This document shows, in pieces, positions 1,258-31,001 of a DNA stretch of 64,000 bases. The notes beneath the pieces are model-generated. The model searched no databases, was not told the DNA's origin, and saw nothing but the letters and a program-made list of their open reading frames with translations. The number at the start of each line of letters is the position of its first letter. Position 1 is the first letter of the stretch. The position numbers and the translations under genes were made by a program. Source of the stretch: Sphingomonas cavernae (GTDB taxonomy: Bacteria; Pseudomonadota; Alphaproteobacteria; Sphingomonadales; Sphingomonadaceae); NCBI RefSeq assembly GCF_003590775.1, contig NZ_QYUM01000003.1, positions 188,501 to 252,500 on the forward strand. The letters run 5' to 3'.

Positions 1258-1380
1258 GGGTTTTGCGACAGTGCCATGGCCGGCTGCGCGCGGCGGAAAT
1301 GCTTGTCCTTTCTGGCACCGGTTTTCAGCCGCTTGAATGCGGCCCATGCTGGCTGCCCACCCCCTCAAAACAGGTTCGCC

Positions 1381-3366: not shown

Positions 3367-3420
3367 GGCGGTCGAAAGACGCCAATCTGCTGATAGGCTC
3401 GGAAGGGCCAACCGCCTCCG

Positions 3421-3454
3421 GGCGGCTCCAAGGATCTTTCGAGGATCAGCCGCC
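3421..3454. terminator. Hairpin between convergent relaxase and abiEii
   Basis: ggcggct at 3421-3427 pairs with agccgcc at 3448-3454, with gatc repeats inside. It lies between two converging genes and could end transcripts from both sides. There is no strong T-run. Confidence 0.45.
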
Positions 3455-3472
3455 CCCTGTCAGCCATGCGTT

Positions 3473-5176: not shown

Positions 5177-5177
5177 T

Positions 5178-5249
5178 TGTCCGAAATTTGTATATATTTT
5201 TCGGACAAGTTGCAACCAATGTCCGAAATTTGTGGTCATATTTCGGACA
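5178..5249. promoter_or_regulatory. Two tandem identical operators upstream of abiEi
   Basis: TGTCCGAAA-N12-TTTCGGACA occurs twice, at 5178-5207 and 5220-5249. Arms and 12-bp spacers are the same length in both, and the centres are 42 bp apart, about four helical turns, so both would face the same side of the DNA. AbiEi antitoxins are known to autorepress by cooperative binding to paired inverted repeats. The AT-rich spacer of the first copy (tatatatt) may hold the -10 element. Confidence 0.8.
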
Positions 5250-5716
5250 AAAGGGTCGTCGAAATTCGAGCGGACCCAGTCAGGCTTCAGAGTGGATTCT
5301 CCCGCATCATGCTGTCAATGCGGCCGGCAACGTCGCGCCAATGGCGGTTAGCGCCGCCATCTCGGACATTTGTGCGCCCAACCTCGCTTCCTATAAGCTG
5401 CCGTCTGTTCATGTATCGCAAGATCGGCCGAAGCTGGGCCGCTAGCTGACAGACGCCTTGCGGGCTGCACTGACACGTTTGCTGTCGTCCGGGCACAGCA
5501 TGCCCGACAACCGAGATTCTCCAGATCGAAATCGTCGGGGTTGCTTGCTGCTAAGCGAAGTCGAATCTAAAGGTCTCTGGAAATAAAGCCGCGAGGTGTT
5601 GATGGATTTGGCGAGAACATCGCGACTTGATGCTTCGGCTTTCGGCAAGAATGCCAAGGCTCCGGGTATGGTAGCCGGATTGTGCGCTGCCGCAAGCATG
5701 CTGGACACCGCTGTCG
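5250..5716. other. 467-bp gap without a recognisable gene
   Basis: Short frames exist on both strands but none has a recognisable domain or a good ribosome binding site. The gap should hold the promoters for abiEi (leftward) and for the sigma-like gene (rightward), so it probably marks the join between two cargo modules. Confidence 0.5.
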
Positions 5717-6535
5717 ATGAGAGATGAGGGGGTCATCCACCCAACGCCGCTCACCCGCAAGCGCCGTGACGGCACACGGTACACCCGTAGGCCGGAGATC
5801 GAGATGGCGCTCCAGTCGCTGCTCGCTATGTCTCGCGACGACTTGCAGAAGGTTATCGCGATCCGCGATCCCTCGGCGGCCGGATATGTCCCGTCCGAAT
5901 GCCTCGTCCATCTCATCCGTCGGACACGGATCGACAACTCCGAAAGCCAGTTCGACCGTCTTTATCGCGAGATCATGCGTCGCATCGATGCGGTCATGCC
6001 CCGCGTGCAGGGCGAACGGATGGACAAGGCGGAGAACATCCACGCAGCAGGTGCCCGCGACCGGGTGCGTGACGCCTTCAACGAGCGGCTTGCCTCCGAT
6101 CGGAACGAGCCCGGCCCCGGGCTCGATTACTTCGAGGTCATGTTCGCCGACGCCATCGCCGCGCTGCGCGCCAGCGCCTTGCGCAAGACGGGGCGGGAGG
6201 CGAGGCGCACCGAGCCGATCGAACGCAACCCGGAGACCAATGAGCCATCGCTGGCGGTCGAACGCGCCGTCGGAAGCCTCGACATAGAGGAGATGCTGCT
6301 CTCGGACGATCCGATCTACCGGTCCCGCGTCGCCGCCGCGATTGACGCCCTACCGGACAAGCAGCGGAGGGTTATCGAGATGATCAGACAGGGAATGCAG
6401 TTGGACTCTTCGGACGATGCGGTGCTTTCCATACGCAAAGTGCTCGACGTTGCGGAGAAGACCGTCCGTAACCGCCGCGACGCGGCGATCGAGAGCATCC
6501 GGAAGACATTAGAGATTGGAAGCGCAGATGACTGA
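5717..6535 (+). CDS. Sigma-70-like protein (region 4-type HTH)
   Basis: A 272-residue protein whose C-terminus reads like sigma-70 region 4: AAIDALPDKQRRVIEMIRQG, then a helix-turn-helix around SIRKVLDVAEKTVRNRRDAA. The middle (YFEVMFADAIAALRASALRK) could correspond to region 2. It may direct RNA polymerase to promoters of the downstream block or act as a DNA-binding adaptor. The start ATG at 5717 has no strong RBS. Its end overlaps the next gene by 8 bp, so the two are translationally coupled. The distance from classical sigma factors is large, so the role is inferred. Confidence 0.6.
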   Translation: MRDEGVIHPTPLTRKRRDGTRYTRRPEIEMALQSLLAMSRDDLQKVIAIRDPSAAGYVPSECLVHLIRRTRIDNSESQFDRLYREIMRRIDAVMPRVQGERMDKAENIHAAGARDRVRDAFNERLASDRNEPGPGLDYFEVMFADAIAALRASALRKTGREARRTEPIERNPETNEPSLAVERAVGSLDIEEMLLSDDPIYRSRVAAAIDALPDKQRRVIEMIRQGMQLDSSDDAVLSIRKVLDVAEKTVRNRRDAAIESIRKTLEIGSADD

Positions 6536-7115
6536 TCCCGATCGAGAAAATGCCGAGGATATCCTATTGGAGTTCGCGGCCGAGCCCGAGCACGATCGCG
6601 AGACACTCGAGCGGTATCTGCGCGACCATCCCCGCCTCGCCGATCAACTCGTGGACCTGTCGCTCGAACTGCGTTTGCAGCGGACGACCTCGGCTCAGAG
6701 CGTCCCGGAGGACGAGGAGTGGGTCGAGACGTCGTTGAAGTCCTTCAAGACCATGATGGGCGCCGGATCAGCGACCGCGACCGCCGCCGACCCGTTCGCC
6801 CCACATTCTTCGACGGCACTGGTCGCGATACGAAAGAGGCTCGGCGTACCCAGCGCGGTCATGCACGGATTCCGGACCCGCATCGTTGATGTGGCAACGG
6901 TACCGGCCCGCTTCCTCGACATGCTCGCGCGCGAACTCGGCTCCAGCGCCGAAGGTCTGCGCGGCTTCCTCGCCCGGCCCCCACAGCTGGCGGTAGGGCT
7001 GAGCTACAAGGCGGACGAGGCTCCGACCCTCGAAGGACAGCGCATCTCCTTCGAGAAGCTCCTCCTGGATGCCCGCGTTCCGGAAGAGGATCGCGTGCGT
7101 CTGCTCGCGGAATAG
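6528..7115 (+). CDS. Small acidic partner of the sigma-like/IrrE genes, unknown function
   Basis: A 195-residue protein. The N-terminus is acidic and helical (DPDRENAEDILLEFAAEPEH), and the C-terminal half has a pattern seen in proteins placed before ImmA/IrrE peptidases (TALVAIRKRLGVP, ATVPARFLDMLARELG, ISFEKLLLDARVPEED). It starts inside the end of the sigma-like gene and is followed 9 bp later by the IrrE-UvrD gene. That arrangement resembles a sigma / anti-sigma / protease unit, or a repressor / protease pair such as DdrO-IrrE and ImmR-ImmA. I therefore suspect it is an inhibitor cleaved by the downstream peptidase. No domain proves this. Confidence 0.55.
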   Translation: MTDPDRENAEDILLEFAAEPEHDRETLERYLRDHPRLADQLVDLSLELRLQRTTSAQSVPEDEEWVETSLKSFKTMMGAGSATATAADPFAPHSSTALVAIRKRLGVPSAVMHGFRTRIVDVATVPARFLDMLARELGSSAEGLRGFLARPPQLAVGLSYKADEAPTLEGQRISFEKLLLDARVPEEDRVRLLAE

Positions 7116-7124
7116 GACCGGCGC

Positions 7125-10100
7125 GTGGACGCCATCGAACTCGCGAGGCAGCATGCCGCACGCCTCCACGACGCGGTGGTGGCGGACGGGACCGATGCAT
7201 GGAACCCTCTCGCCGTCGCGACGGCCGTGGCAAAGGCGAAGGAACTGGACGTCGAGCCCATCGAACCGGGCAGCCCTCTTCTGTCGGATGGTCGGGCCCA
7301 CTTCGATCCGACGGCGCGCGCGATCCGGCACGAGGATTGTGGTGACGACTTCCACAAGGCCTTTCTCATCTCCCACGAGCTCGGGCACGCATCGTTGGGC
7401 GACGACCGCGTCGAGCACACGGCGCACAAGATCGATCCCGCCCGGTCGTCCGAAGCCGCGCCGGTCGGCGAGGACAGGGTCACCGACTACAGCAGACGGC
7501 AGCGCCGGGAGGTCCAGATGGACCTGTTCGGGCGCGAACTGCTCCTTCCGCGCCATCGGGTTCGCGCCCTGCATCTCGACGGGATGACCGCCACTCAGAT
7601 CGCGGAACGGCTGGGCGCGCCATTCGAGGTCGTGGCCCAGCAGTTGCTGGACGCGCTGCTCCTTCCGCCCATCGCGCACGAGGAACCGGCATTAGCCCCG
7701 GCGCCGGTAAGGCAGCTGAACAACGAGCAGCGCGCAGCGGCGTCGTACCGTGGTCCCGCCTATCTGCTGGAGGCGGGACCCGGCACCGGGAAGACCCAGA
7801 CGCTGGTGGAGCGGGTGACGTTGCTCGTCGACGAGGGCGTCGATCCGCGCTCGATCCTCGTCCTCACCTTCTCCAACAAGGCGGCCGGGGAGCTGTCGGA
7901 TCGGATCGCCTCCCTGCGACCGGAGGCTGCGTCCGCCATGTGGATCGGCACCTTCCACGCGTTCGGTTTGGACCTAGTACGCCGACGTCATCGCGACCTT
8001 GGTTACGATCGCGAACCCCGCCTGATGGACCGGTCCGAGGCGATTGCGTTGCTGGAGCATGAGTACCTGTCGCTCGGTCTCGTCCACCATCAGGAGCTGT
8101 GGGATCCGGCGCGGCCGCTGAAGGACATGCTCTCGGCCATATCGCGGGCGAAGGACGAGGTCGCCGATGCGACGAGGTTCGCCGACCTCTCGCGCCTGAT
8201 GCTCGATGCCGCGACAACTGTCGAGGAGCGCGAGGCGGCGGAGCGCTGCGGGGAGGTAGCGCTCGTGTACGAGCGCTACGAGCAACTGAAGCGCTGCGCG
8301 GTTGCCATCGACTTCGGCGACCTCGTCGCCCTTCCCGTCACACTCCTCGAAAGCATGCCGTCGATCGCTCAGGAACTGCGCGGCATCCATCAGCACGTCC
8401 TCGTCGACGAGTATCAGGACGTGAACCGCAGCAGCGTTCGGCTCCTCCAGTTGCTGACCGATGGCGGCCGCGACCTATGGGCGGTGGGTGATGCGCGACA
8501 GGCGATCTACCGCTTCCGCGGTGCGTCCTCCTACAACATGTCGCGCTTCGCCGAGGACTTCCCGGGAGCGCAGGGGGGAAGGCTCCGGGTCAACTACCGC
8601 TCAACCCCTGAAATCGTCGCGTCATTCTCCGCCTTCGGGCAGGACATGGCCGCTGGCACGGGCGACGCCAGCCTCGAAGCGAACCGGCCTAGAAGCGGCA
8701 GCCGCCCGGATCACGTGACGTTCGGCGACAACGACGATGAAGCGGACGCGCTGGCCGACGAGATTCTGGCGCTTAAGCCTTCGATCGGCTTCCGGGGGCA
8801 GGCGGTGCTCTGCCCCGGCAATGATCGCCTCGCCCGGCTCGGCGGTGAACTCGAACGTCGCGGTATACCCGTACTCTACCTGGGCAATCTGTTCGACAGG
8901 CCTGAGGTCAAGGATCTGCTGGCCCTGCTTTCGCTGCTCGTCGACCGGCGGGCCATGGCGCTTGTGCGCCATCCGACGCTGCCGGGACTCGACGCACGCC
9001 TCGGGCTCACGGGTGCCGCGGCCGTCGTCGAGCACCTCCGCCAGAGCGACGTGGCACCGCTCGCGTGGACGTCTCGGCCCAGTGAAATCACCGGGGTCAC
9101 GGACGAAGACGCGGCGGTCCTCTCGGATCTCGCCGTCGTGCTGACCGGATTCAGCGAGGAGAGCCGCCCCTGGCCGGTGCTCGCCCGCGTCCTGCTGGAC
9201 CGGACCCGCGCCGCCGCACTGCTCTCCGAGGCAGACGACGTCGCGGGACGCTCGATGGGCGTGGCCGTCTGGCAGTTCATGGGCTTCCTGCGAGCCGCAC
9301 GACCCGGCCAGGGCCTACCTATCCAGAACCTCCTCGACTCCATCCGGCGTCTCGTGATGCTCGCCGACGAGCGAGATCTGCGGCAGCTGCCGATCGCAGC
9401 CCAAGGTATCGACGCGGTCCGCCTGATGACGATCCATGGCAGCAAGGGCCTGGAGTTTCCGGCGGTCCACGTGATGGGGCTCAACAAGAACTCCATGCCG
9501 CGGGCCGCCCGACGCCCCGCCTGTCCCGTACCGGACGGCATGATCGACGGCGCCGAGGGCGGCACCGTCGCCATCGCCAAAGCAGACCATGAGCTCGAAC
9601 AGGAATGCCTGTTCTACGTCGCAGCATCCCGCGCGCGCGATCGACTGCTCGTCTATTCCGCGACGAAGGATGCGGGCGGCAGGAATCGCAATCCGTCCCC
9701 CTATGTCGCAAGACTCGCACCGATCACGCAGCGGTCAGCGACCAAGCACGTCGACCGCCAACCCGACCCCGAACTCCTCCCGCTGCCGATCCGCGTCGGG
9801 CCACCTCTCGTCCTGACCACCGCGCAGCTGGACCTGTACACCCGCTGCCCGCGCCGCTTCCTATACACGCATGTTCTCGGGACCGGCGGGAAGCGGACGC
9901 CCACCACGCTCTCGCGGATGCACGACATCGTACGCGCGGTGGTGAACGACATGGCCCGCATCGAGCCCGACGCGTGCACGCAGATGGAGGCGGAGGAGAT
10001 GCTCGCCGCCGCCTGGTCGATCAGCCCGTTGGCGGGAGAGGAATACCGTCTCCATCGCGAGGCCGCCCTGCTTCTCGTGCAACGCTTCGCGTCTTCACGC

Positions 10101-10523
10101 GCGGGCGGGCGGCGCGTCGAGATCGAGGCGTTCCAGGCGGTCATCCGCGACGATGTGGTGACCGCACGGGCGGACGACGTCATCGTTGGGAGTGACGGAA
10201 GGCACATGGCGCGCGTCGTGCGGACGGGGCACGCCTCTTCTAGCGCCGGGCAGGGGCTCGCCGATGCGGCATTCCAGATGGCCGCCGCCAGCATGCCTCA
10301 TTGCGGCATCGAGATCCTCCATCTGTCGGACGCCGGTCCGGCCATCGCAGTCGCCTTCGACGCCAACAAACTCGGCAAACAGCGCGAGAAGCTGGTGACG
10401 GCGCTTGCGGAAATTAGCGCCGGTCGCTTCGCCCCGGAGCGTTCGGAACGAACATGCCCGTTTTGCCCGGCGTTCTACACCTGCGGCCCGATCGCCTGCG
10501 GGTCGCTGCAAAAAAATCTCTGA
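7125..10523 (+). CDS. ImmA/IrrE metallopeptidase - UvrD helicase - AddB-like Fe-S nuclease-domain fusion
   Basis: A 1132-residue protein with a GTG start 9 bp after the previous gene. Residues 1-190 are a COG2856 zinc peptidase: HELGH at 84-88, then a possible third ligand in RREVQMDLFGRELLLP. A full UvrD/Rep superfamily 1 helicase follows: AGPGTGKT, DEYQD, GDARQAIYRFRG, VNYRSTPEI, TIHGSKGLEFPAV and YVAASRARDRLLV. The C-terminus resembles the AddB/RecB-type nuclease with a 4Fe-4S cluster: C908 in YTRCPRRF and C1111, C1114, C1120 in CPFCPAFYTC. The expected catalytic DYK of vvDYKTG reads as VVR in ARVVRTG, so the nuclease is probably inactive. Sensor helicase coupled to regulatory proteolysis is my inference. 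Confidence 0.85.
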   Translation: MDAIELARQHAARLHDAVVADGTDAWNPLAVATAVAKAKELDVEPIEPGSPLLSDGRAHFDPTARAIRHEDCGDDFHKAFLISHELGHASLGDDRVEHTAHKIDPARSSEAAPVGEDRVTDYSRRQRREVQMDLFGRELLLPRHRVRALHLDGMTATQIAERLGAPFEVVAQQLLDALLLPPIAHEEPALAPAPVRQLNNEQRAAASYRGPAYLLEAGPGTGKTQTLVERVTLLVDEGVDPRSILVLTFSNKAAGELSDRIASLRPEAASAMWIGTFHAFGLDLVRRRHRDLGYDREPRLMDRSEAIALLEHEYLSLGLVHHQELWDPARPLKDMLSAISRAKDEVADATRFADLSRLMLDAATTVEEREAAERCGEVALVYERYEQLKRCAVAIDFGDLVALPVTLLESMPSIAQELRGIHQHVLVDEYQDVNRSSVRLLQLLTDGGRDLWAVGDARQAIYRFRGASSYNMSRFAEDFPGAQGGRLRVNYRSTPEIVASFSAFGQDMAAGTGDASLEANRPRSGSRPDHVTFGDNDDEADALADEILALKPSIGFRGQAVLCPGNDRLARLGGELERRGIPVLYLGNLFDRPEVKDLLALLSLLVDRRAMALVRHPTLPGLDARLGLTGAAAVVEHLRQSDVAPLAWTSRPSEITGVTDEDAAVLSDLAVVLTGFSEESRPWPVLARVLLDRTRAAALLSEADDVAGRSMGVAVWQFMGFLRAARPGQGLPIQNLLDSIRRLVMLADERDLRQLPIAAQGIDAVRLMTIHGSKGLEFPAVHVMGLNKNSMPRAARRPACPVPDGMIDGAEGGTVAIAKADHELEQECLFYVAASRARDRLLVYSATKDAGGRNRNPSPYVARLAPITQRSATKHVDRQPDPELLPLPIRVGPPLVLTTAQLDLYTRCPRRFLYTHVLGTGGKRTPTTLSRMHDIVRAVVNDMARIEPDACTQMEAEEMLAAAWSISPLAGEEYRLHREAALLLVQRFASSRAGGRRVEIEAFQAVIRDDVVTARADDVIVGSDGRHMARVVRTGHASSSAGQGLADAAFQMAAASMPHCGIEILHLSDAGPAIAVAFDANKLGKQREKLVTALAEISAGRFAPERSERTCPFCPAFYTCGPIACGSLQKNL

Positions 10524-10606
10524 GGGAATTACCGGTCGTCCCTGGCTGGGGGATTTGCCCTTTGAGACCGCCGCATGCCGCCGCGGTCGCGATGAGGTAA
10601 ACACAG

Positions 10607-11353
10607 ATGACCCCCACCGAAATCCTGATCGACGTCGACGACGTCTCCGATGCCATCCTCGAAGGCCGCGCGCTGCGTCCGGGGCGCTACCGCGTCTCTT
10701 TTGCCATTGACGGCATCGACTTCGCCCCCACTATCCTCGACGATCCGGTTCCGCTCGGCCGGCAGATCCAGAAGGCGGGCGGCGCCACCCCGATCGACAA
10801 CTTCGCTCTGTTCACCATCACGAGCGAAGGCGACTTCGAGGACGTCCGTCCCGACGAGGAGGTCGACCTGCATGGCCGCGGCGTCCACCGCTTCATCGCC
10901 TTCAGCGGCGACCCGTTGTATCGGGTGAAGCTCAACGACAGCCGCATCGTCTGGGGCATGACCTTGATCCCCGAGACGGTCCTCCGCTCGCTCGCCGGCA
11001 TCGGCGAGGAGGAGGCGGTCTTCCTCGAAGTCCGCGGCGGCACCGACCGGCTCATCCCGCCCGGCAGCGATGTGGACCTCACCGGCGAAGGGGTCGAGCG
11101 CTTCATCACCGCCCCGCACAAGCAGACATACCGCTTCTTCGTGAACGGCAAGCCCTACGAGACCGACAAGAAGAAGCTGACCGGCGCCCAGATCAAGGCG
11201 ATGGTGCCCGACTGGGATCCGACCCACGATCTCGCGCTGGAGGGCGAAGGGGACGATCCCGACCGGATCATCGCCGACGACGAGACAATCAGCCTCGACC
11301 CGAAGCACGGCATCCGCCGCTTCTCGTCGGTGCCGAAGGCGAACTTCGGCTGA
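10607..11353 (+). CDS. Multiubiquitin-type protein with three ubiquitin-like domains (BubA/BilA-like)
   Basis: A 248-residue protein with three tandem beta-grasp repeats, about residues 26-100, 104-170 and 174-248. Each ends in a related strand: VDLHGRGVHRFIAF, VDLTGEGVERFITAP and ISLDPKHGIRRFSSVP. The chain ends in ANFG, so a C-terminal Gly is already exposed for adenylation by an E1 without proteolytic trimming. This matches the multiubiquitin domain proteins encoded with E1, E2 and JAB proteins in bacteria. An RBS (gatgagg) precedes the ATG. It is presumably the modifier attached to target proteins by the next two gene products. Confidence 0.9.
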   Translation: MTPTEILIDVDDVSDAILEGRALRPGRYRVSFAIDGIDFAPTILDDPVPLGRQIQKAGGATPIDNFALFTITSEGDFEDVRPDEEVDLHGRGVHRFIAFSGDPLYRVKLNDSRIVWGMTLIPETVLRSLAGIGEEEAVFLEVRGGTDRLIPPGSDVDLTGEGVERFITAPHKQTYRFFVNGKPYETDKKKLTGAQIKAMVPDWDPTHDLALEGEGDDPDRIIADDETISLDPKHGIRRFSSVPKANFG

Positions 11354-11736
11354 TGTCCGGCATCCTCACCATGCAGCTGGAGCAGCTGCGGGAGCGCTTC
11401 GGCGACGTGCAGTCCCGGCCGATGGCGAGCGGCACCACGCTCGTCGCCGTGCGGGGTGTGCACCTGCCGGAGGGGTGGTCGAAGGCCTCGACCACCATCC
11501 GCTTTCTCATCCCGCCGGGATACCCGTTCGCCCAGCTCGACTGCTTCTGGGCGGATGCCGACCTGCGTCTCACCGGCGGGGCGATGCCGCAAAGTTCGGC
11601 GCCGAACGGCATCCCCGAGACCACCGAGATGGGTTTGTGGTTCTCCTGGCACCTCACCGGCGCCTGGAACCCCAATCGCGACACGCTCTCCTCATGGATG
11701 AACGTCGTGATCGAGCGCATGAGGCAGGTGCGATGA
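11353..11736 (+). CDS. E2-like conjugating protein (prokaryotic E2 family E)
   Basis: A 127-residue protein whose start shares one base with the previous stop (TGATG). The E2 fold is indicated by FLIPPGYPFAQLDCFWAD, the PxxYPF-type turn, and by WFSWHLTGAWNPNRDTL, which corresponds to the segment around the catalytic site and the following helix. The only Cys (C64) lies in the strand after PPGYPF, not at the catalytic position. By spacing from W105-N-P, the canonical Cys position falls near F97/S98. Related diverged bacterial E2 proteins have been reported, as I recall, to act through Ser; that fits but is not proven here. It should receive the ubiquitin-like protein from the JAB-E1 fusion. 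Confidence 0.85.
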   Translation: MSGILTMQLEQLRERFGDVQSRPMASGTTLVAVRGVHLPEGWSKASTTIRFLIPPGYPFAQLDCFWADADLRLTGGAMPQSSAPNGIPETTEMGLWFSWHLTGAWNPNRDTLSSWMNVVIERMRQVR

Positions 11737-13079
11737 GCGGGATCCGCTTCGCCGCGCCGGCCTACTCCGGCCTGACGTCGAGCTTGCTCGACGCCGACGG
11801 CCTGGAGAGCTGCGCCATCGCCTACGCCCATCACGATGCCGCCACCAGCACGTGGATCGTCGGCGACGCCGTGCCGGTGCCGGAGGACGCCTATGAACGC
11901 CGGGACTGCGTGTCCGCGGTGCTCAAACCGTCCTTCCTCATCGACGTCGCCAACCGCAGCCGGGTGACCGGCATGGCCGTGATCGCCATCCACACGCATC
12001 CGGGCAGCTCGGGATATCCGCACTTCTCGTCGATCGACGACGAGGGCGAGACCGAACTCGCTCCCTATTTCGCCCAGCGCGGGGCGGCCGTGCCGCACGT
12101 CGCGCTTGTGATCGGACCGGAGGGCTGCCGTGCCAGGGTGCTCGGTGCGGGGGAGAGCATCGACGTATGGGAGGTGGGAGAGCGGCTCTTGCTTCATTCG
12201 CCCATGCCCGGCCGCGCTGCCCAGAAGAGGGACGACCGGCAGGTGCGTGCATTCGGTGAGCCGGGGCAACGCCTGCTGCGTCGGCTCCGCTTCGGCGTCA
12301 TCGGCGCTGGCGGCACCGGATCACTCGTCTGTCAGCAGCTGGCCCATCTGGGCGCGTCGTGGATCACGGTCATCGACCCCGATCTGGTCGAGGCCACGAA
12401 CCTCAACCGCCTCGTAGGGTCCGTTCCGTCGGACGTCGGCACACCGAAGGTCGACGTGGCGGCGAGGATGATCCGCGCCATCAACCCCGACGCCACCGTC
12501 ATCCCCCTACGGGCCGACATCGTCGACGAAGATGTGGCCAAGCTGCTCGCCACGTTCGACTTCGTGCTGCTCTGCACCGACTCCCACGCGAGCCGGGCCG
12601 TCGTCTGCCAGGCGGCCTACCAATATCTGGTGCCGGCGATCGACATGGGCGTCAGCATCACCGTCGCGAACGGCGGGGTGACCCACATCACCGGACGTGT
12701 GCAGATGCTTGCGCCGGGTCTGCCGTGCCTTACCTGTTCGGGCACACTGGACGGCGAGGTGATCCGGCGCGAGATGCAGACGCCGGAGCAGCGCGCCGCC
12801 GATCCCTACGTGCATGGCGTCCGCGAGCCGCAGCCCGCGGTGTTGTCCATCAATTCGACCGTGAGCTCGCTGGCCGTCACTATGCTGCTCGGCGCCGTCA
12901 CGCCAGTGCCGGTGAAGCCGCGCCACCAGACGTACGACGGTATCCGCGGGAGAGTGAGGGAGATCGCCGTCGCCGTGCAGTCGCAATGCATCGTTTGCTC
13001 CCCTGCGGGCGCGCTGGCCAAGGGGCCGACCTGGAACCTGCCGGTCCGTCCGGCCCGTCCTGAGGGGGATGACCGATGA
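11733..13079 (+). CDS. JAB isopeptidase - E1/ThiF adenylyltransferase fusion
   Basis: A 448-residue protein, start overlapping the E2 stop by 4 bp (ATGA). Residues 1-150 form a JAB/JAMM metalloprotease domain with H87-T-H89-P and S99-S-I-D102, slightly longer spacing than canonical HxHx10D. Residues 185-448 form a ThiF/E1 domain: GAGGTGS at 191-197, IDPDLVEATNLNR at 214-226, and two zinc pairs CxxC at 332/335 and 419/422. No Cys lies between the zinc pairs, where an E1 thioester Cys would often sit, so it may adenylate and pass on the modifier without a classical thioester. The JAB part would remove conjugates or trim the modifier. Confidence 0.9.
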   Translation: MSGIRFAAPAYSGLTSSLLDADGLESCAIAYAHHDAATSTWIVGDAVPVPEDAYERRDCVSAVLKPSFLIDVANRSRVTGMAVIAIHTHPGSSGYPHFSSIDDEGETELAPYFAQRGAAVPHVALVIGPEGCRARVLGAGESIDVWEVGERLLLHSPMPGRAAQKRDDRQVRAFGEPGQRLLRRLRFGVIGAGGTGSLVCQQLAHLGASWITVIDPDLVEATNLNRLVGSVPSDVGTPKVDVAARMIRAINPDATVIPLRADIVDEDVAKLLATFDFVLLCTDSHASRAVVCQAAYQYLVPAIDMGVSITVANGGVTHITGRVQMLAPGLPCLTCSGTLDGEVIRREMQTPEQRAADPYVHGVREPQPAVLSINSTVSSLAVTMLLGAVTPVPVKPRHQTYDGIRGRVREIAVAVQSQCIVCSPAGALAKGPTWNLPVRPARPEGDDR

Positions 13080-13612
13080 GGCCGCCCGCACACATGATCC
13101 GAATGGTTGGGGAGGCCGAATATCGGGATCAAGCGGAGGCCTCCCTTGAGGCCCCGGGCGATGCGTCGATGGTGTTTCGCGCCCGGCCCCGTTCGATAGT
13201 GATGGCGTGCCCCGACGGTTGCGGTGAGACGCTCGTGATCAACCTCGACAGCCGCGCTGACAAGGCTTGGCGGCTGGACATGCGTGGCGGAGGATTGACC
13301 CTCTTCCCGTCGGTGTGGCGCGACGGGGGGTGCGAGAGCCACTTCATCGTCTGGCGCGGCCGCATCCTTTGGTGCGACAGGTTTGAGGAGGGGAACCGGG
13401 AACCGGCCTACGATGCGACGATCGAGCCGACTGTCCTCGCTGCGATGGATCCGATCGAGCCACGCAATGCCGTCGAAATGGCGGATGCGATCGACGAACT
13501 CGTGTGGGACGTGAACCGTGCGGCGGATCGCCTTGTAAGTCGAGGGCTCGCTCGCTCGCGCAAGGAAAACGGGGTGTGGGTGTTCACTCGTAAAGACGAA
13601 GCTAAAATCTGA
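13076..13612 (+). CDS. DUF6527 (BubE-type) protein of the ubiquitin-like operon
   Basis: A 178-residue protein overlapping the JAB-E1 stop by 4 bp. The DUF6527 signature is clear: CPDGCGETLVINL, LTLFPSVW and CESHFIVWRGRILWC. The conserved Ser-His in CESHF could be functional, and members of this family accompany multiubiquitin/E2/JAB-E1 operons. A role as a hydrolase or deconjugating enzyme has been suggested for it; I cannot confirm this from sequence. After about residue 105 there is an extra helical C-terminal region of about 70 residues with winged-helix character (AADRLVSRGLARSRKENGVW), so it may have a fused module. Confidence 0.85.
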   Translation: MRPPAHMIRMVGEAEYRDQAEASLEAPGDASMVFRARPRSIVMACPDGCGETLVINLDSRADKAWRLDMRGGGLTLFPSVWRDGGCESHFIVWRGRILWCDRFEEGNREPAYDATIEPTVLAAMDPIEPRNAVEMADAIDELVWDVNRAADRLVSRGLARSRKENGVWVFTRKDEAKI

Positions 13613-13674
13613 CGAAGGATCTCTCGATCACTTTCACATTCACTGCCTATCGCAGGGCAAGGGTATTTGCCAAC

Positions 13675-14955
13675 ATGCGACATCGACCCAAAAAGGGGGC
13701 AACATTGTCAAGCTTTCGATTCCTGCATGCTGCAGACATCCACTTGGACAGCCCATTGCATGGCCTCTCGCGGTATGAAGGGCTGCCTATTGAGGAGATC
13801 CGGTCGGCCACACGATCGGCGTTCGACAATTTGATTCAGTGCGCGATCGATGAGGCGGTGGATTTCGTCGTCATCGCCGGCGATCTTTTCGACGGCGATT
13901 GGCGCGACATGGGGACCGGACTTTATTTCGCGCGAGCTATGGGCCGGCTCGACCAGGCTGAAATCCCCGCTTTCGTGCTTGCCGGGAACCACGACGCCGC
14001 CTCCGTGATCTCACGCACGGTGCCTTGGCCCCCAAACGTGAAGCTCTTCGGTTCCCGCAGGCCCGAGACGCACCGGTTGCCGAACCTCGAGGTCGTCGTG
14101 CACGGCCAGAGCTTCTCCACTCCCGCGGTCACCGACAACCTCGTCCTGGCCTATCCGGCGGCCGATGATCACGCCTTCAACATCGGCATGCTGCACACCG
14201 CGCTTGCAGGAAGGCCGGGCCACGCCGCTTACGCGCCTTGCAGCTTGGATGACCTTCGCTCCAAGGGCTACGACTACTGGGCACTGGGTCACGTTCACGA
14301 GTTCGAGATCGTGAGCCGGGATCCCTACGTGGTCTTCCCAGGCAACGTGCAGGGCAGAACCATTCGAGAGACCGGAGCCAAAGGCGTGGTGATCGTCACG
14401 GTGGTCGACCGTGAGGTGACCGCGCTCGAGCGGGTCGAGCTTGATGTCATCCGCTGGATTCGGCTGGATGTCGACTGCGTGGGCGCGCTCGACGATGATG
14501 TCGGCGATCTGGTGAGAGCGGAGCTCGGCCGCCTCCACAGTTCAAACGGATCTGGTCGCCCGCTTGTGGCCCGGGTCACACTGGTCGGCGAGACCGTGGC
14601 CGCCGGAGCCCTGCACGACCGCGCGGCGTCGCTACGCGACGACGTCCGCGCCATCGCCGGCTCGATCTCGCCCAATCTTTTTGTCGAGAAGGTAAAGGTG
14701 CTCGTGAGCGAACCTGCTCGGGAAGGCGTTACCATGGGCGAGGACCTCGGCTTGCTCATCGACGAGGCCGCGACCGACCCCGACCTTGCCGCCGCTATCA
14801 AGGCAGATCTCGATAGGTTCATGATCGCTGCCGGCACGACGCTTGGCGAACCGGAGGAGGGCGAACTCCGCTTGTCGGCGGCGCAAGATGATTGGTCGTC
14901 CGTCCTCGCGACTGCGTCGACCGCATTGCGATCTCGCCTCACGAGAGGGGCCTGA
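13675..14955 (+). CDS. SbcD/YhaO-like metallophosphoesterase (DNA nuclease subunit)
   Basis: A protein of up to 426 residues with all metal-binding motifs of the Mre11/SbcD/YhaO family: HAADIHLDSP, GDLFDGDW, LAGNHDAAS and GHVHEF. It should act as a Mn-dependent nuclease with the ATPase encoded 2 bp downstream. The first ATG is at 13675 but lacks a good RBS. A TTG at 13705 is preceded by aaggggg and would give the typical short N-terminus SSFRFLHAADIH, so it may be the real start. The gap to the ubiquitin-like operon is 62 bp, so transcription could continue through. Confidence 0.88.
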   Translation: MRHRPKKGATLSSFRFLHAADIHLDSPLHGLSRYEGLPIEEIRSATRSAFDNLIQCAIDEAVDFVVIAGDLFDGDWRDMGTGLYFARAMGRLDQAEIPAFVLAGNHDAASVISRTVPWPPNVKLFGSRRPETHRLPNLEVVVHGQSFSTPAVTDNLVLAYPAADDHAFNIGMLHTALAGRPGHAAYAPCSLDDLRSKGYDYWALGHVHEFEIVSRDPYVVFPGNVQGRTIRETGAKGVVIVTVVDREVTALERVELDVIRWIRLDVDCVGALDDDVGDLVRAELGRLHSSNGSGRPLVARVTLVGETVAAGALHDRAASLRDDVRAIAGSISPNLFVEKVKVLVSEPAREGVTMGEDLGLLIDEAATDPDLAAAIKADLDRFMIAAGTTLGEPEEGELRLSAAQDDWSSVLATASTALRSRLTRGA

Positions 14956-14957
14956 CC

Positions 14958-17900
14958 ATGCGGTTCTCTCGTCTCTCGCTAGAACGATATGGTCGCTTCG
15001 AGGACTGCGCACTCAATTTTCGTTTGGGCTCTCCCGACCTTCATATAATTTACGGCGCCAACGAGGCTGGAAAGACCACATCGCTCGCGGCCGTGTCGGA
15101 TCTCCTTTTCGGATTTCCGGTCCGATCGCCCTACAACTTCCTGTTCGACTACTCCCTGCTCCGCGTGGGAGCCGTCCTTGAGGACAGCGGCGCCACGCTT
15201 GCTTGCCGCCGGAAGAAGGGCTCGGCCGGCACTCTGCTCGACGCCAACGAGGCGGTGATCGACGATGCGCCCCTGAGGGCAATGCTCAAGGGGCAGACGC
15301 GCGAGACCTTCGGGCTATCGTTCAGCCTGAATCAGGATGCCCTGCGCTCAGGTGGCCGCGCCATGGTCGAAGCCAAGAACGACGTCGGACGAGCGCTCTT
15401 CGCAGCCGGATCCGGTCTGACTGGCGTCGCGGACGAGTTGAAGAAGCTCGAAGCGGAATCCGATGGCATCTGGGGTCCGACCGCGAAGGCAAGCCGGACG
15501 TTCACCCAAGCACTGCGAATCTATTCTGAGTCGAGCAAGACGGTTCGGGATAATGCGTTGAAGCCAAAGGCATGGTCCGACGCCAAGGCGACAAGCGAAT
15601 GCACGCGAGAGGCGCTCGCGGCGGCGCGACGTGAGCGCGACCAAGTTCACGCAGAACTGAGCGGGGCGGAGCGCGTTCGCAGGCTAGCGCCGGTGATGCG
15701 CCAGCGCGACGAGCAATTGGCGTCGCTGGATACCTTCGCGGACGTCGTTGATCTGGGGCGGCAGCGCGAGGACGCCGCCGAGGCCCTGATCAACGAAGCT
15801 GAGGAAGCGGTGCGTCAGGCCACCGCTGCTGAGCTGCTCCAGCGCGACATAGCGGAGCGACGCGCTAAGATTGCTGCCGATACCGCGGTGCTCGACGAGA
15901 GCGAGGAGATCGATCGCCTGGTTGCAGACTCAGGTGCGGAAGCGAAGGCGGCACGGGATCTCGTCGGCCTCGAACAGGAGCGGATCGCCGCCACCGCAAA
16001 CGTCGAACGGCTGCGAGCGGAGGCTGGCGTTAATGCCGACGCAACGCCTCAGCGTTCCGTGGCTGCGAAGCTGCGCGACCTTGCCCGCCGCCACGGCGAA
16101 CATCAGGTCGCGAGCCAACAGCTAACCGAAAGCCGGCAAGCAATCGAAGCGCGTCGGGAGCGCGCCCAGAGCTCATTGGATGCCAGCCCGGCGGAGGCTA
16201 CACCGGATGCTCTCGTGGATGCGGTCGATGCCGCGCGATCCCTCGGTGCCGACGCTGACGAGAGGGTCGAGGCCGCCCTTCGCCAAGCGGAGGTCGCCGG
16301 CATCGCGGTCGCTGCAGCTCTCGGCAGATTGGTCCCATGGAACGGCGACTTCGAGAGCCTCATCAAGCTCCCAACCGTTGGTGACCGGGAAATCGAGGTC
16401 GCGCGCGACGAGTTGGCCGCGCTTGCTGCAACGATCCGCCGCGAGGAGGACGACGCGCGTCGTTCGAACGAACTCGCTGCCGGCTTGGCCTTGGAGATCG
16501 CCCAGACCGCGACTGGAACGGCTGTCTCACCGGAGGAAATTCTCGAGGCGCTGCAGCTTCGCGAGAGCCGCTGGAGGCCGATCCGCGACCATGTTCTGAA
16601 TGGCGCACCACTGGCCGGGCCCGCCGCCGCGGTCGAGGGCTTCGAGGCATGTGTTGCGTCCGTCGACGAGAAAATGGAGCGGCGGTTCAACCTAGCGGAG
16701 GCTTCGAGCCGGCTCACCGTCCGCGAACAAACGAAGGCTGGTCACGAACTGGAGGCATCACAGGCAGGGAAGCGAGCCGAGGACGCCAAGGAACGGCATG
16801 AGCAGTCGCTCAAAGTCTGGCTGACGCGGTTGGTCGATGCAGGCCTGCCCGAGTTGGATCCGTCCCGGTTCCAGACGTGGCAGGCCGACCGCATGCGAGC
16901 GGAGGCGGCACACTCAGAGCATCAGGATCTTCTGGCCGATGCCAAGCGGTCAGGGGCGCGACGCGACGCAGTCCGCCAAGCGCTCTCCGCCGCTCTGGCA
17001 CTTGAGGATTCTGGCGGCCTCCTAGCTCCCGTGCTGCTCGCAGCCGAGCGTCGGCGTTCCTTGATCGAGGAGGTCGAGCAGAAGCGACGCGTTGCTCAGT
17101 CCGAACTGGACCAGGTCGCGATTGACGCTGAGGCACTGGAACAGCGGCAGGGGAAGCTCGATCCGGACATCGCGAAGAACGCGTTCGATTGGACGGCAGC
17201 CTTGGCTGAGGCTCGTCTGAACCTGGACGTCGTGACCTGCGGAGCAGTGCTGGACGTCCTCGACGAGCTTCGAGAGGCGACCGCCGGAGAGGCGCTACTC
17301 CGTCGACGGATAGATGGCATCAACCGCGATGCTCGTGACCATGCTTCGAGTGTCGATGCCATTGCCGACAGGATCGGCGTGCCCCCGGGCGATGCCGCAA
17401 GCCGCCTCCGCATGCTTCGGGAGCGACTGGCAGCAGCACGTTCATCGGCAACGCTCCTCGGCTCTCTGGACGAGGAGGGTCGACGGCGCGGCGGTGAGGT
17501 CGATGAGGCGCAGGCGAAGCTGAAGGCAGCCGAGGAGGCTCTCGGACCGCTGCTTGCCGAAACGAAGTCAGCGGATCGCCCCGCTCTTGGCGCGGCGATT
17601 GAGCGGTCGCGTGTTCTTCGCGCCTTGCGCGATGAGATTGCCGCGACCGAACGAAGGATCGTTGCTGATGGGGATGGCTTGGCCTTGGCAGAGCTGATCG
17701 CCGCTGTGTCGGACTCCAATCCAGACCAAATCGCCGAGCGTGTCGCATCGCTCAACGCGAAGCTCGAGGAACTAAACGAAAGCACCGACGAAGCCGCGAC
17801 TGCACACGGGGATGCGCGCAGCACGTTCGCGGCGCTCGCGACAGAAGGCACCTCGGCGGTCGATGCGGCGACGGACGCCGAGCAAGCGAAGTCCGAACTG

Positions 17901-18398
17901 GAGGTCCTCGCCGAGCACTACATCCTGAAGCGATCGCAGGCGGTCATGCTGAAATGGGCGATCGAGAAGTATCGCGAGCGACACCAGGACCCGTTGCTTC
18001 TGCGAGCTGGCGAACTGTTCTCCATCCTGACGACCGGCAGATACGCGACGCTGAAGATCGATGCCGACGGCGCGACGCCGCGCCTCTTGGGCATGCGGGA
18101 CGATCAGCGCACGATGGTGGAGGTGGATGCCATGAGCGAGGGCACTACGGACCAGCTCTTCCTTGCCCTGAGGCTCGCGGCTTTGGAGCAGTCCGTCGCC
18201 GCTGGTATCAGTTTGCCCTTCCTCGCCGATGATCTCTTCGTGAACTTCGACGATGAGCGGGCAGAAGCGGGCTTTAAGGTGCTCGCCGAGGTGTCGAAAT
18301 CGACTCAGGTCCTCTTCTTCACCCATCACCCACACCTCGTCCAGATCGCGAAATCGGTGGTTGGCGCCGAGCTACACTCGGAGTGCTCGCTATCGTGA
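14958..18398 (+). CDS. SbcC/YhaN-like coiled-coil ATPase
   Basis: A 1146-residue ABC-type ATPase of the Rad50/SbcC/YhaN class. The N-terminus has IIYGANEAGKTTSLAAV (Walker A) and the YhaN-like phrase ETFGLSFSLNQDALRSGG. The centre is a very long Ala/Glu/Arg-rich coiled coil. The C-terminus has the signature MSEGTTDQLFLALRLA, Walker B LPFLADDLFVNFDDER and the switch FFTHHPHL. The start at 14958 is 2 bp after the nuclease stop, so the two are cotranslated. Together they would tether and process DNA ends. Not a housekeeping SbcC: it lies in ICE cargo. Confidence 0.88.
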   Translation: MRFSRLSLERYGRFEDCALNFRLGSPDLHIIYGANEAGKTTSLAAVSDLLFGFPVRSPYNFLFDYSLLRVGAVLEDSGATLACRRKKGSAGTLLDANEAVIDDAPLRAMLKGQTRETFGLSFSLNQDALRSGGRAMVEAKNDVGRALFAAGSGLTGVADELKKLEAESDGIWGPTAKASRTFTQALRIYSESSKTVRDNALKPKAWSDAKATSECTREALAAARRERDQVHAELSGAERVRRLAPVMRQRDEQLASLDTFADVVDLGRQREDAAEALINEAEEAVRQATAAELLQRDIAERRAKIAADTAVLDESEEIDRLVADSGAEAKAARDLVGLEQERIAATANVERLRAEAGVNADATPQRSVAAKLRDLARRHGEHQVASQQLTESRQAIEARRERAQSSLDASPAEATPDALVDAVDAARSLGADADERVEAALRQAEVAGIAVAAALGRLVPWNGDFESLIKLPTVGDREIEVARDELAALAATIRREEDDARRSNELAAGLALEIAQTATGTAVSPEEILEALQLRESRWRPIRDHVLNGAPLAGPAAAVEGFEACVASVDEKMERRFNLAEASSRLTVREQTKAGHELEASQAGKRAEDAKERHEQSLKVWLTRLVDAGLPELDPSRFQTWQADRMRAEAAHSEHQDLLADAKRSGARRDAVRQALSAALALEDSGGLLAPVLLAAERRRSLIEEVEQKRRVAQSELDQVAIDAEALEQRQGKLDPDIAKNAFDWTAALAEARLNLDVVTCGAVLDVLDELREATAGEALLRRRIDGINRDARDHASSVDAIADRIGVPPGDAASRLRMLRERLAAARSSATLLGSLDEEGRRRGGEVDEAQAKLKAAEEALGPLLAETKSADRPALGAAIERSRVLRALRDEIAATERRIVADGDGLALAELIAAVSDSNPDQIAERVASLNAKLEELNESTDEAATAHGDARSTFAALATEGTSAVDAATDAEQAKSELEVLAEHYILKRSQAVMLKWAIEKYRERHQDPLLLRAGELFSILTTGRYATLKIDADGATPRLLGMRDDQRTMVEVDAMSEGTTDQLFLALRLAALEQSVAAGISLPFLADDLFVNFDDERAEAGFKVLAEVSKSTQVLFFTHHPHLVQIAKSVVGAELHSECSLS

Positions 18399-18760
18399 CC
18401 AGACTGCCGGTTCGGACCGCATGACTCTCGAAGATGACCCCGCCCTTCATAACTGGGCACGAAGCCGAGACGAACTGTGGGCTTAGCACAACGGCAGATC
18501 TTCAAGGATTTCGACTTGTAAACCGACTTTCCGGATTGTCCGCCATCCAAGATGTTCAGTCCGGGGCCTGCGCGGGCCGCGGGAATGTCTGCTTGCAGGC
18601 GCCCGAAAAAGGGCAATCTAACGACCGCGATTGGGCGCTAATCTGCTGCTGCCGCATGGTGCGTTGTGGCGCGTCAAGACCGCCATATGAGGTTTGGGGC
18701 GCTGGCCTGATGATCGCGGCTTGAACCTGGACGCATCCGGCGTCTGGCGGGAGAGCCGTG
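18399..18760. other. 360-bp junction between cargo and conjugation genes, no gene seen
   Basis: Only short frames without RBS or domain are present. This is the boundary where cargo (5.7-18.4 kb) meets traG, so it may be a variable-region insertion junction. No direct or inverted repeat that would mark an insertion was evident by eye. Confidence 0.4.
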
Positions 18761-20788
18761 ATGACGCCCACCAAGCTGCTGATAGGTCAGATCCTCGTCG
18801 TCTTCGGCATCGTTATCGCCGGCGTGTGGGCGGCGACCCAATGGACGGCCGCGATGCTTGGCTATCAGGCCGAGCTCGGCCTTCCCTGGTTCATGCTCGG
18901 CGAGTTCCCCGTTTATTGGCCGTGGGCGATCTTCTCGTGGTGGTATCATTACGAGGCCTACGCGCCGCACGTTTTCGACAAGGCGGGGACACTCGCCGGT
19001 GCCAGCGGTTTTCTTGGCTGTGCCGCGGCCATCGCGGGCTCGCTCTGGCGTGCGCGCCAAGCCCGGCATGTCACCACATATGGTTCGGCGCGCTGGGCGA
19101 CCAACGGGGAGATCGAGCGCGTCGGACTGTTCGGCGACGCCGGCGTGTTCCTCGGCCGGCTGCATGCCCGCTATCTGCGCCATGATGGCCCCGAGCATGT
19201 CATGGCGTTCGCCCCGACGCGTTCGGGAAAGGGCATCGGCCTTGTCGTGCCCACGCTGCTGAGCTGGACCGGCTCGGCCGTTATTCACGACATCAAGGGT
19301 GAGAACTGGCAGATCACCGCCGGCTGGCGGTCGCTTTTCTCGCACTGCCTGCTGTTCAACCCGACTGACTCGCGTTCAGCCAAATACAATCCCCTGCTGG
19401 AGGTCCGTCGCGGCGAATATGAAGTCCGCGACGTCCAGAATATCGCTGACATCCTCGTCGATCCCGAAGGCGCGCTCGAACGGCGCAATCATTGGGAGAA
19501 GACATCCCACTCGCTGCTCGTCGGCGCGATCCTCCATATCCTCTACGCCGAGGAGGAGAAAACGCTGGCGCGCGTCGCCACCTTCCTCTCCGATCCGCAG
19601 CGGACATTTGTCGACACACTCAAGCGGATGATGGGCACCAACCATCTCGGCACCAAGGAGGCGCCGCAAGTCCACCCCGTGGTCGCCTCAGCCGCTCGCG
19701 AGGTGCTCAACAAGAGCGACAATGAGCGCTCGGGCGTGCTCTCGACTGCGATGTCCTTCCTCGGCCTGTATCGCGATCCGACCGTCGCCGAGGTCACTTC
19801 TCGCTGTGATTGGCGCATCGCTGACCTGGTCGAGGCAGAGCGGCCGATCTCGCTCTATCTGGTCATTCCACCATCAGATATCAGCCGCACCAAGCCGTTG
19901 ATCCGGCTCGTGCTCAACCAGATTGGCCGCCGGCTGACTGAACAGCTCGATGGCGGCGCCAGCGGTCGCAAGCATCAACTGCTGATGATGCTCGACGAGT
20001 TCCCGGCTTTGGGGCGGCTGGATTTCTTCGAGACCGCGCTGGCGTTCATGGCCGGCTACGGCATCCGCGCCTTCCTGATCGCCCAGAGCCTCAACCAGAT
20101 CGAAAAGGCTTATGGCGAACACAACGCGATTCTCGACAATTGTCATGTGCGCGTGGCGTTCGCGACCAATGACGAGCGGACCGCACGCCGCATCTCCGAC
20201 TCGCTCGGCACGGCCACCGAACAGCGCGCGATGCGCAATTATGCGGGGCATCGGCTCGCGCCCTGGCTCGCCCATGTCATGGTCAGCAGACAGGAGACCG
20301 CAAGGCCGCTGCTGACCACCGGCGAGGTGATGCAGCTTCCGCCCGCCGACGAACTGCTCCTAATCTCGGGGCTCGCGCCAATCCGCGCGAAGAAGCTGCG
20401 GCACTATGAGGACGACAATTTCCGCGCGCGGCTGCTGCCGACGCCAGTGCTTGCCGAAGGCGCATACAGCGATCGTCCCAAGGCGCGATCGAACGACTGG
20501 GGCAGTTTCGCCCGTAAACCCGACCCCCGGCTCGCCCGCGCCGAAGATGCGGCAACGCCGGATGAGGATGACGGTGGCCTTCAGCAGCAGCGCCATCCCG
20601 GCCTTGCTCAAGAACGCGTCGTGAAGCCCGAGCCGCCAAAGCAGCTCAAGCTTCTCGGGCTTGATCAGGACGACGCCGATCCCGCGACCGACAAACGCGC
20701 GATGGACCGGGCGCGCTCCCTTGTCCCGATGGTCCGCGGCCACACGCTGAACCAGGGCCGGGACCATGACGTCCTGCCGGGTCTGTGA
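18761..20788 (+). CDS. traG: Type IV coupling protein TraG/VirD4
   Basis: A 675-residue inner-membrane ATPase that links the relaxosome to the mating channel. Two N-terminal hydrophobic segments (ILVVFGIVIAGVWAA and FLGCAAAIAGSLW) anchor it. Walker A is APTRSGKGIGLVVPTLL and Walker B is LLMMLDEFPALGRL. The family phrase VIHDIKGENWQITAGWR is present. A GTG at 18758 directly precedes the ATG; the ATG at 18761 has better spacing to gggag. The C-terminus ends 10 bp before the CopG gene. Confidence 0.95.
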   Translation: MTPTKLLIGQILVVFGIVIAGVWAATQWTAAMLGYQAELGLPWFMLGEFPVYWPWAIFSWWYHYEAYAPHVFDKAGTLAGASGFLGCAAAIAGSLWRARQARHVTTYGSARWATNGEIERVGLFGDAGVFLGRLHARYLRHDGPEHVMAFAPTRSGKGIGLVVPTLLSWTGSAVIHDIKGENWQITAGWRSLFSHCLLFNPTDSRSAKYNPLLEVRRGEYEVRDVQNIADILVDPEGALERRNHWEKTSHSLLVGAILHILYAEEEKTLARVATFLSDPQRTFVDTLKRMMGTNHLGTKEAPQVHPVVASAAREVLNKSDNERSGVLSTAMSFLGLYRDPTVAEVTSRCDWRIADLVEAERPISLYLVIPPSDISRTKPLIRLVLNQIGRRLTEQLDGGASGRKHQLLMMLDEFPALGRLDFFETALAFMAGYGIRAFLIAQSLNQIEKAYGEHNAILDNCHVRVAFATNDERTARRISDSLGTATEQRAMRNYAGHRLAPWLAHVMVSRQETARPLLTTGEVMQLPPADELLLISGLAPIRAKKLRHYEDDNFRARLLPTPVLAEGAYSDRPKARSNDWGSFARKPDPRLARAEDAATPDEDDGGLQQQRHPGLAQERVVKPEPPKQLKLLGLDQDDADPATDKRAMDRARSLVPMVRGHTLNQGRDHDVLPGL

Positions 20789-30362: not shown

Positions 30363-30364
30363 TC

Positions 30365-30589: not shown

Positions 30590-30608
30590 TACGGAAAGGC
30601 CTCCGATC

Positions 30609-30830: not shown

Positions 30831-30933
30831 AAGCGAATCGGCCTTCATCCGCGCGTCTGAAGCTGTGTGCTCCGGAGACGCACCCCACACGCACGTCAGC
30901 CGTCTCAGAAATCCAGCGACATCCCGGCGCGTC

Positions 30934-30955
30934 TATTGGTGATGTATTGGTGATG
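30934..30955. repeat. Tandem 11-bp direct repeat near the element end
   Basis: tattggtgatg occurs twice in immediate succession (30934-30944 and 30945-30955), between the excisionase-like gene and the tRNA. It could be an arm-type site for an integrase or Xis protein. Confidence 0.5.
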
Positions 30956-31001
30956 TTCGCGCTTTGATCTCAATCGATCGCCGCTAACCCATTGAAAAAT
31001 A

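Follow-up and report, generated by a model that had tools for sequence, protein, structure and literature searches.

A mobile sigma-like and IrrE-helicase gene triplet as a probable controller of ubiquitin-like conjugation operons, found in Sphingomonas cavernae

The window analysed in this work is a stretch of 64,000 nucleotides of Sphingomonas cavernae (contig NZ_QYUM01000003.1, positions 188,501 to 252,500), in which nine genes read rightward as one block (Table 1). The first three, referred to here as the triplet, encode a sigma-like protein (sigL), a small protein with a helix-turn-helix (HTH) domain (smallS) and an IrrE-type peptidase fused to a UvrD helicase. Four genes of a ubiquitin-like (Ub-like) conjugation operon follow, the first of them encoding a protein of repeated ubiquitin-like (Ubl) domains, the polyUbl; a pair of SbcCD-like genes, YhaO and YhaN, ends the block. 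Gene starts were refined from the translations, the 534-aa open reading frame (ORF) of the JAB-E1 fusion being over-extended at its N end. Neighbouring genes overlap by 1–8 nt or are separated by short gaps, of 62 bp between DUF6527 and YhaO and 83 bp between the helicase and the polyUbl gene. A first-pass annotation of this DNA had described nine rightward genes with gaps of up to 83 bp, and the ORFs, the protein families and the refined starts confirm it.

Table 1. Features of the block and of its conjugative surroundings in the window
Feature	Position	Strand	Remarks
sigL, ECF-like (extracytoplasmic function) sigma factor, sigma2-like and sigma4 domains	5717-6535	+	272 aa; Pfam sigma70_r4 below cut-off
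Predicted element, copy 1, CTACCGG-N17-GATT	6316-6343	+	inside sigL
smallS, helical N domain, XRE-like HTH, conserved low-confidence linker, C-terminal helices	6528-7115	+	
IrrE (HELGH) - UvrD helicase - degenerate PD-(D/E)XK fusion	7125-10523	+	GTG start; Pfam
Predicted element, copy 2, TTACCGG-N16-GATT	10529-10555	+	spacer between helicase and Ub-like operon
Leader with predicted hairpin, basal stem reaching the Shine-Dalgarno region	10556-10609	+	z -3.2 and -3.12
polyUbl, three beta-grasp repeats, C-terminal Gly	10607-11353	+	PF14452, three stretches, 127.7 bits
E2-like protein (Prok-E2_E)	11353-11736	+	PF14462, 40.2 bits (cut-off 25)
JAB-E1 fusion	11733-13079	+	ThiF 149.5 bits; JAMM-like motif
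DUF6527 protein (protein Y of Iyer type 6e, by position)	13076-13612	+	PF20137, 64.1 bits
YhaO/SbcD-like phosphoesterase, optional neighbour	13675-14955	+	Metallophos 49.8 bits
YhaN-like AAA ATPase, optional neighbour	14958-18398	+	AAA_27 241 bits
Relaxase DUF3363	1276-3366		left of block
TraG/VirD4-type coupling protein	18758-20788		right of block
trb genes	up to 30362		after the coupling protein

With the IrrE part of the helicase as query, a scan of 84,980 genomes gave 224 relatives; the analysis used the 80 best of them. At these loci sigL, smallS and the Ub genes were sought with home-made hidden Markov models (HMMs), in flanks of uneven length (about 7 kb downstream in 61/80 loci). sigL and smallS lie directly 5′ of the helicase in 80/80 loci. 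Downstream sequence of at least 2.5 kb is available for 75 loci, and in 70 of these, genes for Ubl, E1 and DUF6527 stand behind the triplet. The remaining five are L027, L029 and L030, which carry genes of the 6A-MBL type, and L052 and L054, in which the helicase frame ends early. A search of plasmids with sigL gave 76 records; seven were opened, and in six of them (from Cereibacter, Rhizobium, Leptolyngbya, Roseovarius, Klebsiella and Acinetobacter) the triplet is located directly before genes of the multiubiquitin, ThiF and DUF6527 types. The hosts of the triplet include alpha-, beta- and gammaproteobacteria, Myxococcota, Verrucomicrobiota, Planctomycetota, one cyanobacterium and one archaeal metagenome-assembled genome (MAG). 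The archaeal contig (Methanoregulaceae, L044:1-6257) carries both the triplet and Ub genes, by transfer or by a binning error. The start of the IrrE-helicase found no relative in the viral contigs searched, and none in phage records.

Since the main scan was seeded with the helicase, genomes were also drawn without helicase preselection. The smallS profile (A6) matched in 3/385 class genomes and in 6/398 phylum genomes, both counts including the genome of the window, and sigL, the helicase, Ubl and E1 lie beside smallS in 8/8 distinct genomes of the two draws. The most divergent of the eight, L153, gave no DUF6527 match. Multi_ubiq was present in 12/385 class genomes versus the three with smallS; Ub modules therefore often occur without the triplet, and the reverse was never seen in these draws. 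Genes 1–3 are one unit that belongs to the Ub-like module, and the grouping of genes 1–7 is far above chance. The first-pass annotation had placed the sigma-like unit, the IrrE-helicase and the Ub-like module together, and this association holds across genomes. A sigma-like protein, a peptidase and an inhibitor are a sensible control circuit.

Inside the triplet the gaps are short; between the helicase and the first Ub gene, the annotated loci have a spacer of about 70–110 bp. In this spacer, the pattern TT(A/T/C)CCG(G/A)-N17-GAT(T/G) was found by a strict regular expression in 75/92 loci, 72 of them at exactly 17 nt. With a position weight matrix (PWM), 85/90 spacers score over the 99th percentile of 3000 background windows, a count that is partly circular because the matrix was trained on the spacers; the copies within sigL, described below, were outside the training. 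The five failing spacers are those of L042, L077, L052, L125 and L019, the last two with a copy further on. Information is concentrated in the two boxes, the first holding 1.85 bits per base and the second 1.93, versus 0.47 for the stretch between them (69 unique matrix-chosen spacers).

A second copy of the element lies within sigL, over the conserved peptide YRSRLDAAI, in 82/91 loci. In 12 loci a second copy lies just 5′ of sigL, and 89/91 loci have at least one copy in or before this gene. Codon usage at the copy was compared in 90 loci, five further loci without the peptide being excluded. The third base before it is T in 85/90 (19% in the background), Tyr is written TAC in 77/78 (50%), Arg CGG in 74/90 (23%) and Ile ATT in 73/87 (28% in triplet genes); the codons over the sigL copy are thus under constraint at the DNA level. 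Paired copies of one locus also covary, the third base of the first box being alike in 79/83 pairs and the seventh base likewise in 79/83. In the window, the two best plus-strand PWM matches of all 64 kb are those at 6316, which ranks first, and at 10529.

Between the GATT box and the start codon lie 38–95 nt, with 48–57 nt in 62/71 leaders. A fold z below -2 was obtained for 51/71 leaders versus 8/70 coding windows, and the Shine-Dalgarno sequence is at least half paired in 52/66. The stem sequences vary by clade (CCUUAG/CUAAGG, CCUGUG/CACAGG and CUUCG/CGAAG), which suggests structure; in the leader alignments the stem is shifted by one column between clades.

The operon behind the window's triplet corresponds to type 6e of Iyer 2006, which is defined in Table 1 of PMC1779556, as far as this source was accessible, by a polyUbl of 2–3 domains, an E2/RWD-like protein, a JAB-E1 and a metal-binding protein Y, with variants in which domain X replaces JAB. 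The window shares the polyUbl, the E2/RWD-like protein, the JAB-E1 and protein Y with that description. Three PF14452 matches over the cut-off fit the two-to-three-domain polyUbl, and by its predicted proteins (polyUbl, E2/RWD-like protein, JAB fused to E1) the operon is assigned to type 6e. Across 18 homologues, the invariant columns of the E2-like protein include a single Cys, a single His and several Trp; given the Cys in 18/18, this protein may therefore not be inactive. The JAB match in Pfam reaches 14.3 bits, below the cut-off of 25, yet the JAMM-like motif is present in 16/16. The polyUbl ends in Gly in 16/19 cases with a JAB-type E1 and in 1/62 with the other E1 type, where VFNVTRTVQS is a typical end; therefore, the two polyUbl types may differ in chemistry.

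Four kinds of operon stand behind the triplet, two of which (6A-MBL and Bil) are catalogued as anti-phage systems. The first is the type 6e operon with E2 and JAB-E1, as in the window. The second is a type 6e operon with a shorter E1, without JAB and without a separate E2, which accounts for 54 of the 70 Ub loci. The third is 6A-MBL: L029 matches the NCBIfam anti-phage models at 410 and 660 bits, L027 was assigned by HMM match and L030 by ORF lengths equal to those of L029. The fourth is Bil, identified with PADLOC (156–580 bits for the members scanned) as BilA-D in L114 and L124, BilD in L116, BilA/C/D in L012 and L120, and BilA/B/C in L121. The HMM matches for Bil in L120, L121 and L124 are circular, since their own proteins trained the HMMs, and PADLOC is the independent test. 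The element is present in the spacers of all three 6A-MBL loci and in 4/5 Bil loci with a helicase, two of these with N18 and one with GATC. In L029 the gene 3′ of the 6A-MBL genes (9067-10227) encodes what we take, by its motif, to be a patatin-like protein, which may be an effector.

The helicases of seven other members of alignment A3 are 43–52% identical to that of the window, the E1 proteins of five operons of the second kind 23–26% identical to the window's E1, and the E1 of L004, of the first kind and without an adjoining triplet, 58%. In a tree of the helicases, the rows with 6A-MBL fall within the clade of 6e operons with E2 and JAB (support 100). By these identities and this nesting, the operon behind the triplet has been exchanged. 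The tree, built by a quick method and with several long branches flagged, requires 11 changes of partner label. Fewer of these are true partner changes, as four rows are labelled "none" (L052, L065, L115 and L122, the last merely for Ub genes on the opposite strand).

Locus L116 (1-18738) of Roseovarius pelagicus, with triplet, Bil and SbcCD pair beside relaxase and coupling-protein genes, resembles positions 1276-20788 of the window. WYL and WGR genes lie 5′ of the triplet in two Bil loci (L116:7709-8876 and L120:5298-6351), where a CapW-like WYL repressor could be a second control layer. An AAA/ATP-binding protein and an S8 peptidase adjoin the Bil operon in two plasmids (L124:2817-6078 and L012:16478-19697). 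In L015 (10567-11405), an operon like type 6e lacks the triplet and is accompanied by divergent HTH and ImmA/IrrE genes, CapH/CapP-like, as if controllers were interchangeable.

The AlphaFold2 model of sigL has a predicted local distance difference test (pLDDT) score of 88.2. Among its re-examined Foldseek matches the rows of highest Z are sigma factors, with sigmaE at Z 9.7; against 2h27 (sigmaE region 4) the Z is 9.5 over 68 residues with a root-mean-square deviation (rmsd) of 2.9, and against SigW (5wur) 8.9 over 62 residues with an rmsd of 2.0. The model thus gives sigL a predicted sigma4 fold, the -35 binding domain. Two-domain alignments cover residues 56-267, including the candidate sigma2 part, with large rmsd. 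A comparison of the sigL profile with Protein Data Bank (PDB) sequences gave a FliA (E 0.0072) together with an unrelated chain. The smallS model (pLDDT 85.6) contains an HTH that matches SinR, DdrO and the N-terminal domain of CapH at Z 5.3–5.6 (7t5u, CapH, at a middling 5.5), with 3kxa the best at Z 7.0. Its low-confidence linker has a SYKADxKP-like motif in 81/91 loci by a loose regular expression, followed by two short helices; by sequence, smallS gave nothing credible in the PDB.

The likeness of the smallS HTH to CapH and DdrO, together with the occurrence of CapH/CapP beside other Bub operons (in the accessible text of PMC13373217), would fit a different use of the element, as the operator of an XRE-like repressor smallS, with transcription by the housekeeping polymerase, derepression by IrrE cleavage as in CapH/CapP, and sigL as an accessory activator. 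The element, however, is no palindrome; its two boxes stand a constant 17 nt apart, as those of a sigma site do, and the sigL protein carries a sigma4-like domain. We regard the operator as quite unlikely.

In the helicase, HExxH is present in 90/92 relatives, the exceptions (L087 and L091) being frames that start further upstream; Walker A and DExQD are present in 92/92 and the C-terminal cysteine pattern in 89/92. The canonical motif of the nuclease is D-x-K-T-G. A regular expression for D.KTG, with the register taken from alignment A3, matched in 0/92 relatives, and against this canonical motif the nuclease motif is judged to be lost. The nuclease domain gave nothing credible in a sequence comparison with the PDB. 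AddA/AddB and UvrD/PcrA share with the window's protein the superfamily 1 (SF1) core and a C-terminus that resembles PD-(D/E)XK and has conserved cysteines; unlike them, the window helicase has an N-terminal IrrE and has apparently lost the motif. Membership in Gabija or DRT was rejected: among the best 25 of 53 families the helicase matches are generic UvrD-type, including GajB, and no GajA family matched the eight other block proteins at E 0.01.

The matches of the UvrD core to models of defence helicases, GajB among them, lead to a further alternative, in which the triplet is itself an effector: the helicase would attack phage DNA or recruit the conjugation machinery in an E3-like way, and sigL would regulate its own operon only. 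Strict co-occurrence would equally fit such a physical partner. The absence of the nuclease motif from all 92 relatives surveyed speaks against an effector, as does the element, which stands before the operon in all four partner types and is kept upon operon exchange; we hold this alternative to be unlikely.

We propose instead that the genes at 5717-10523 are probably a portable controller for ubiquitin-like conjugation operons. The sequence comparisons show that the triplet travels before four conjugation systems and, its most divergent copies aside, nearly always brings the element with it; sigma activity, inhibition by smallS, cleavage, a DNA trigger and a role in defence are what we infer for it. 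As a controller, sigL would be an ECF-type sigma factor recognising TTACCGG-N17-GATT, both at the copy in or before its own gene, which would drive smallS and the helicase, and at the copy before the conjugation operon. smallS would keep sigL inactive as an anti-sigma factor or would block its sites. The helicase would load on DNA that is abnormal, for example phage or damaged ends; its dead nuclease domain would serve for binding, and DNA engagement would activate the fused IrrE peptidase. This would cut smallS in the conserved linker, as PprI does DdrO and CapP does CapH, and the freed sigL would transcribe the conjugation operon, whose leader hairpin may hold translation low until that release. 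The SbcCD-like pair, an optional neighbour, may process DNA ends. For the fuller claim, a dedicated and horizontally mobile sigma factor for ubiquitin-like immunity, with a sigma/anti-sigma-like pair, a helicase-tethered protease gate and a private promoter pluggable before 6e, Bil and 6A-MBL operons, we consider the chances about even.

Several observations weigh against the controller. The seventh opened plasmid, L012, has sigL and smallS before Bil without the helicase; L115 has an insertion sequence (IS) element after the triplet, a counter-example to the Ub partner; L122 gave no sigL match and its Ub genes are divergent from the triplet; and in L124 sigL matched at 16 bits only. The related loci are not independent of each other. 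No clear element was found at the most divergent triplets (L153, L123 and L124), and the pattern alone is not specific, since it has 19 matches in the genome versus 5 for the reversed pattern. The hairpin of the Acinetobacter leader (L011) is weak (z -0.9). For neither the sigL nor the smallS model did Foldseek return a match at E 0.001 or better, and the HTH matches of smallS (Z 5.3–7.0) are middling for a fold that is common.

The first-pass annotation had also joined the SbcCD-like pair to the triplet and the Ub-like genes, and this part found no support. YhaO and YhaN were found together within 10 kb in 7/80 loci (some flanks being short), upstream in two of these. In L123 a same-strand pair directly follows the Ub genes, and in L116 and L120 a divergent SMC/SbcD pair lies upstream. 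The predicted promoter-like element joins the triplet to the Ub-like operon, and none was found before the pair in 9 loci checked. Since strong YhaN matches are rare in class genomes (19 of at least 130 bits in 289, the window's own included), the pair is enriched at triplet loci, yet optional; defence or mobile islands alone would raise its rate there. One defence system of all nine genes, with the pair as obligate DNA-end processor, could draw on this enrichment and on the neighbouring pairs of L123, L116 and L120. Against it, the pair was not seen in the available flanks of 73/80 loci, its position and strand vary, and relatives of 75% and 67% identity stand outside the Ub context, the pair occurring without sigL, smallS or Ub genes in two Sphingomonadaceae plasmid stretches (L146 and L147). 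Such a system is very improbable, and the nine genes were ruled out as a unit because the pair is separable.

The block is surrounded by a relaxase, a coupling protein and type IV secretion genes, as found in an integrative and conjugative element (ICE). Its placement inside an ICE, also put forward in the first-pass annotation, is supported by this gene content; a search for the ends found no exact repeat of at least 17 bp of region 30300-31140, which holds a tRNA-Glu, in 40 kb leftward or in window 1-36000. Rfam matched the tRNA alone over window 1-32000. A DUF6088 gene (window 4523-5239) lies near the triplet, as DUF6088 genes do by the triplet in L007, L009 and L120, and AbiEii-type genes adjoin it in L007 and L009; both kinds may be frequent cargo of such elements.

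Controllers that sense damage are already known for operons of this kind. In the accessible part of PMC13373217, CapH+CapP, CapW and CapK+CapS lie just 5′ of Bub, Bil, MBL or CBASS operons and serve DNA-damage sensing, the CapP peptidase cutting the HTH protein CapH when bound to single-stranded DNA (ssDNA). More generally, peptidases of the IrrE type respond to ssDNA by cutting DdrO or CapH (PMC10904395 and PMC13373217, as accessible). The triplet is like CapH+CapP in its place upstream of a conjugation operon and in having a peptidase, with smallS as a candidate counterpart of CapH; unlike in that pair, the peptidase is not stand-alone, its motif lying in 90/92 relatives within the protein that also contains the UvrD helicase and the degenerate nuclease. 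The Cap controllers act via repressors, whereas the window has a sigma-like protein and a promoter-like element. PprI/IrrE-DdrO of Deinococcus shares the IrrE-type peptidase and, as proposed for the triplet, an XRE-type substrate and DNA damage; the helicase fusion and the sigma factor, both present in the window, are absent from the accessible text of PMC10904395. The triplet and the element are not part of type 6e as described, the accessible text of PMC1779556 containing neither "helicase" nor "sigma". BilABCD (L114, L116, L120, L121 and L124) and 6A-MBL (L029) stand directly behind the same triplet, where the window carries type 6e. No description of a sigma-based, helicase-tethered controller was found in searches of an open-licence library, a scope outside which Gong 2025 and Ye 2026 lie.

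According to the accessible part of PMC13373217, 219/544 Bub operons carry CapW or CapH+CapP and 59 carry CapK+CapS; many Bub operons are therefore without a known controller. The on-switch of bacterial ubiquitin-related immunity is largely open, and the triplet suggests a new kind of on-switch. If the proposal is true, the triplet would control by activation, would contain its own DNA sensor and could be recognised by its 28-bp element. It would offer a route to further controlled operons and would link separately described conjugation systems by one switch.

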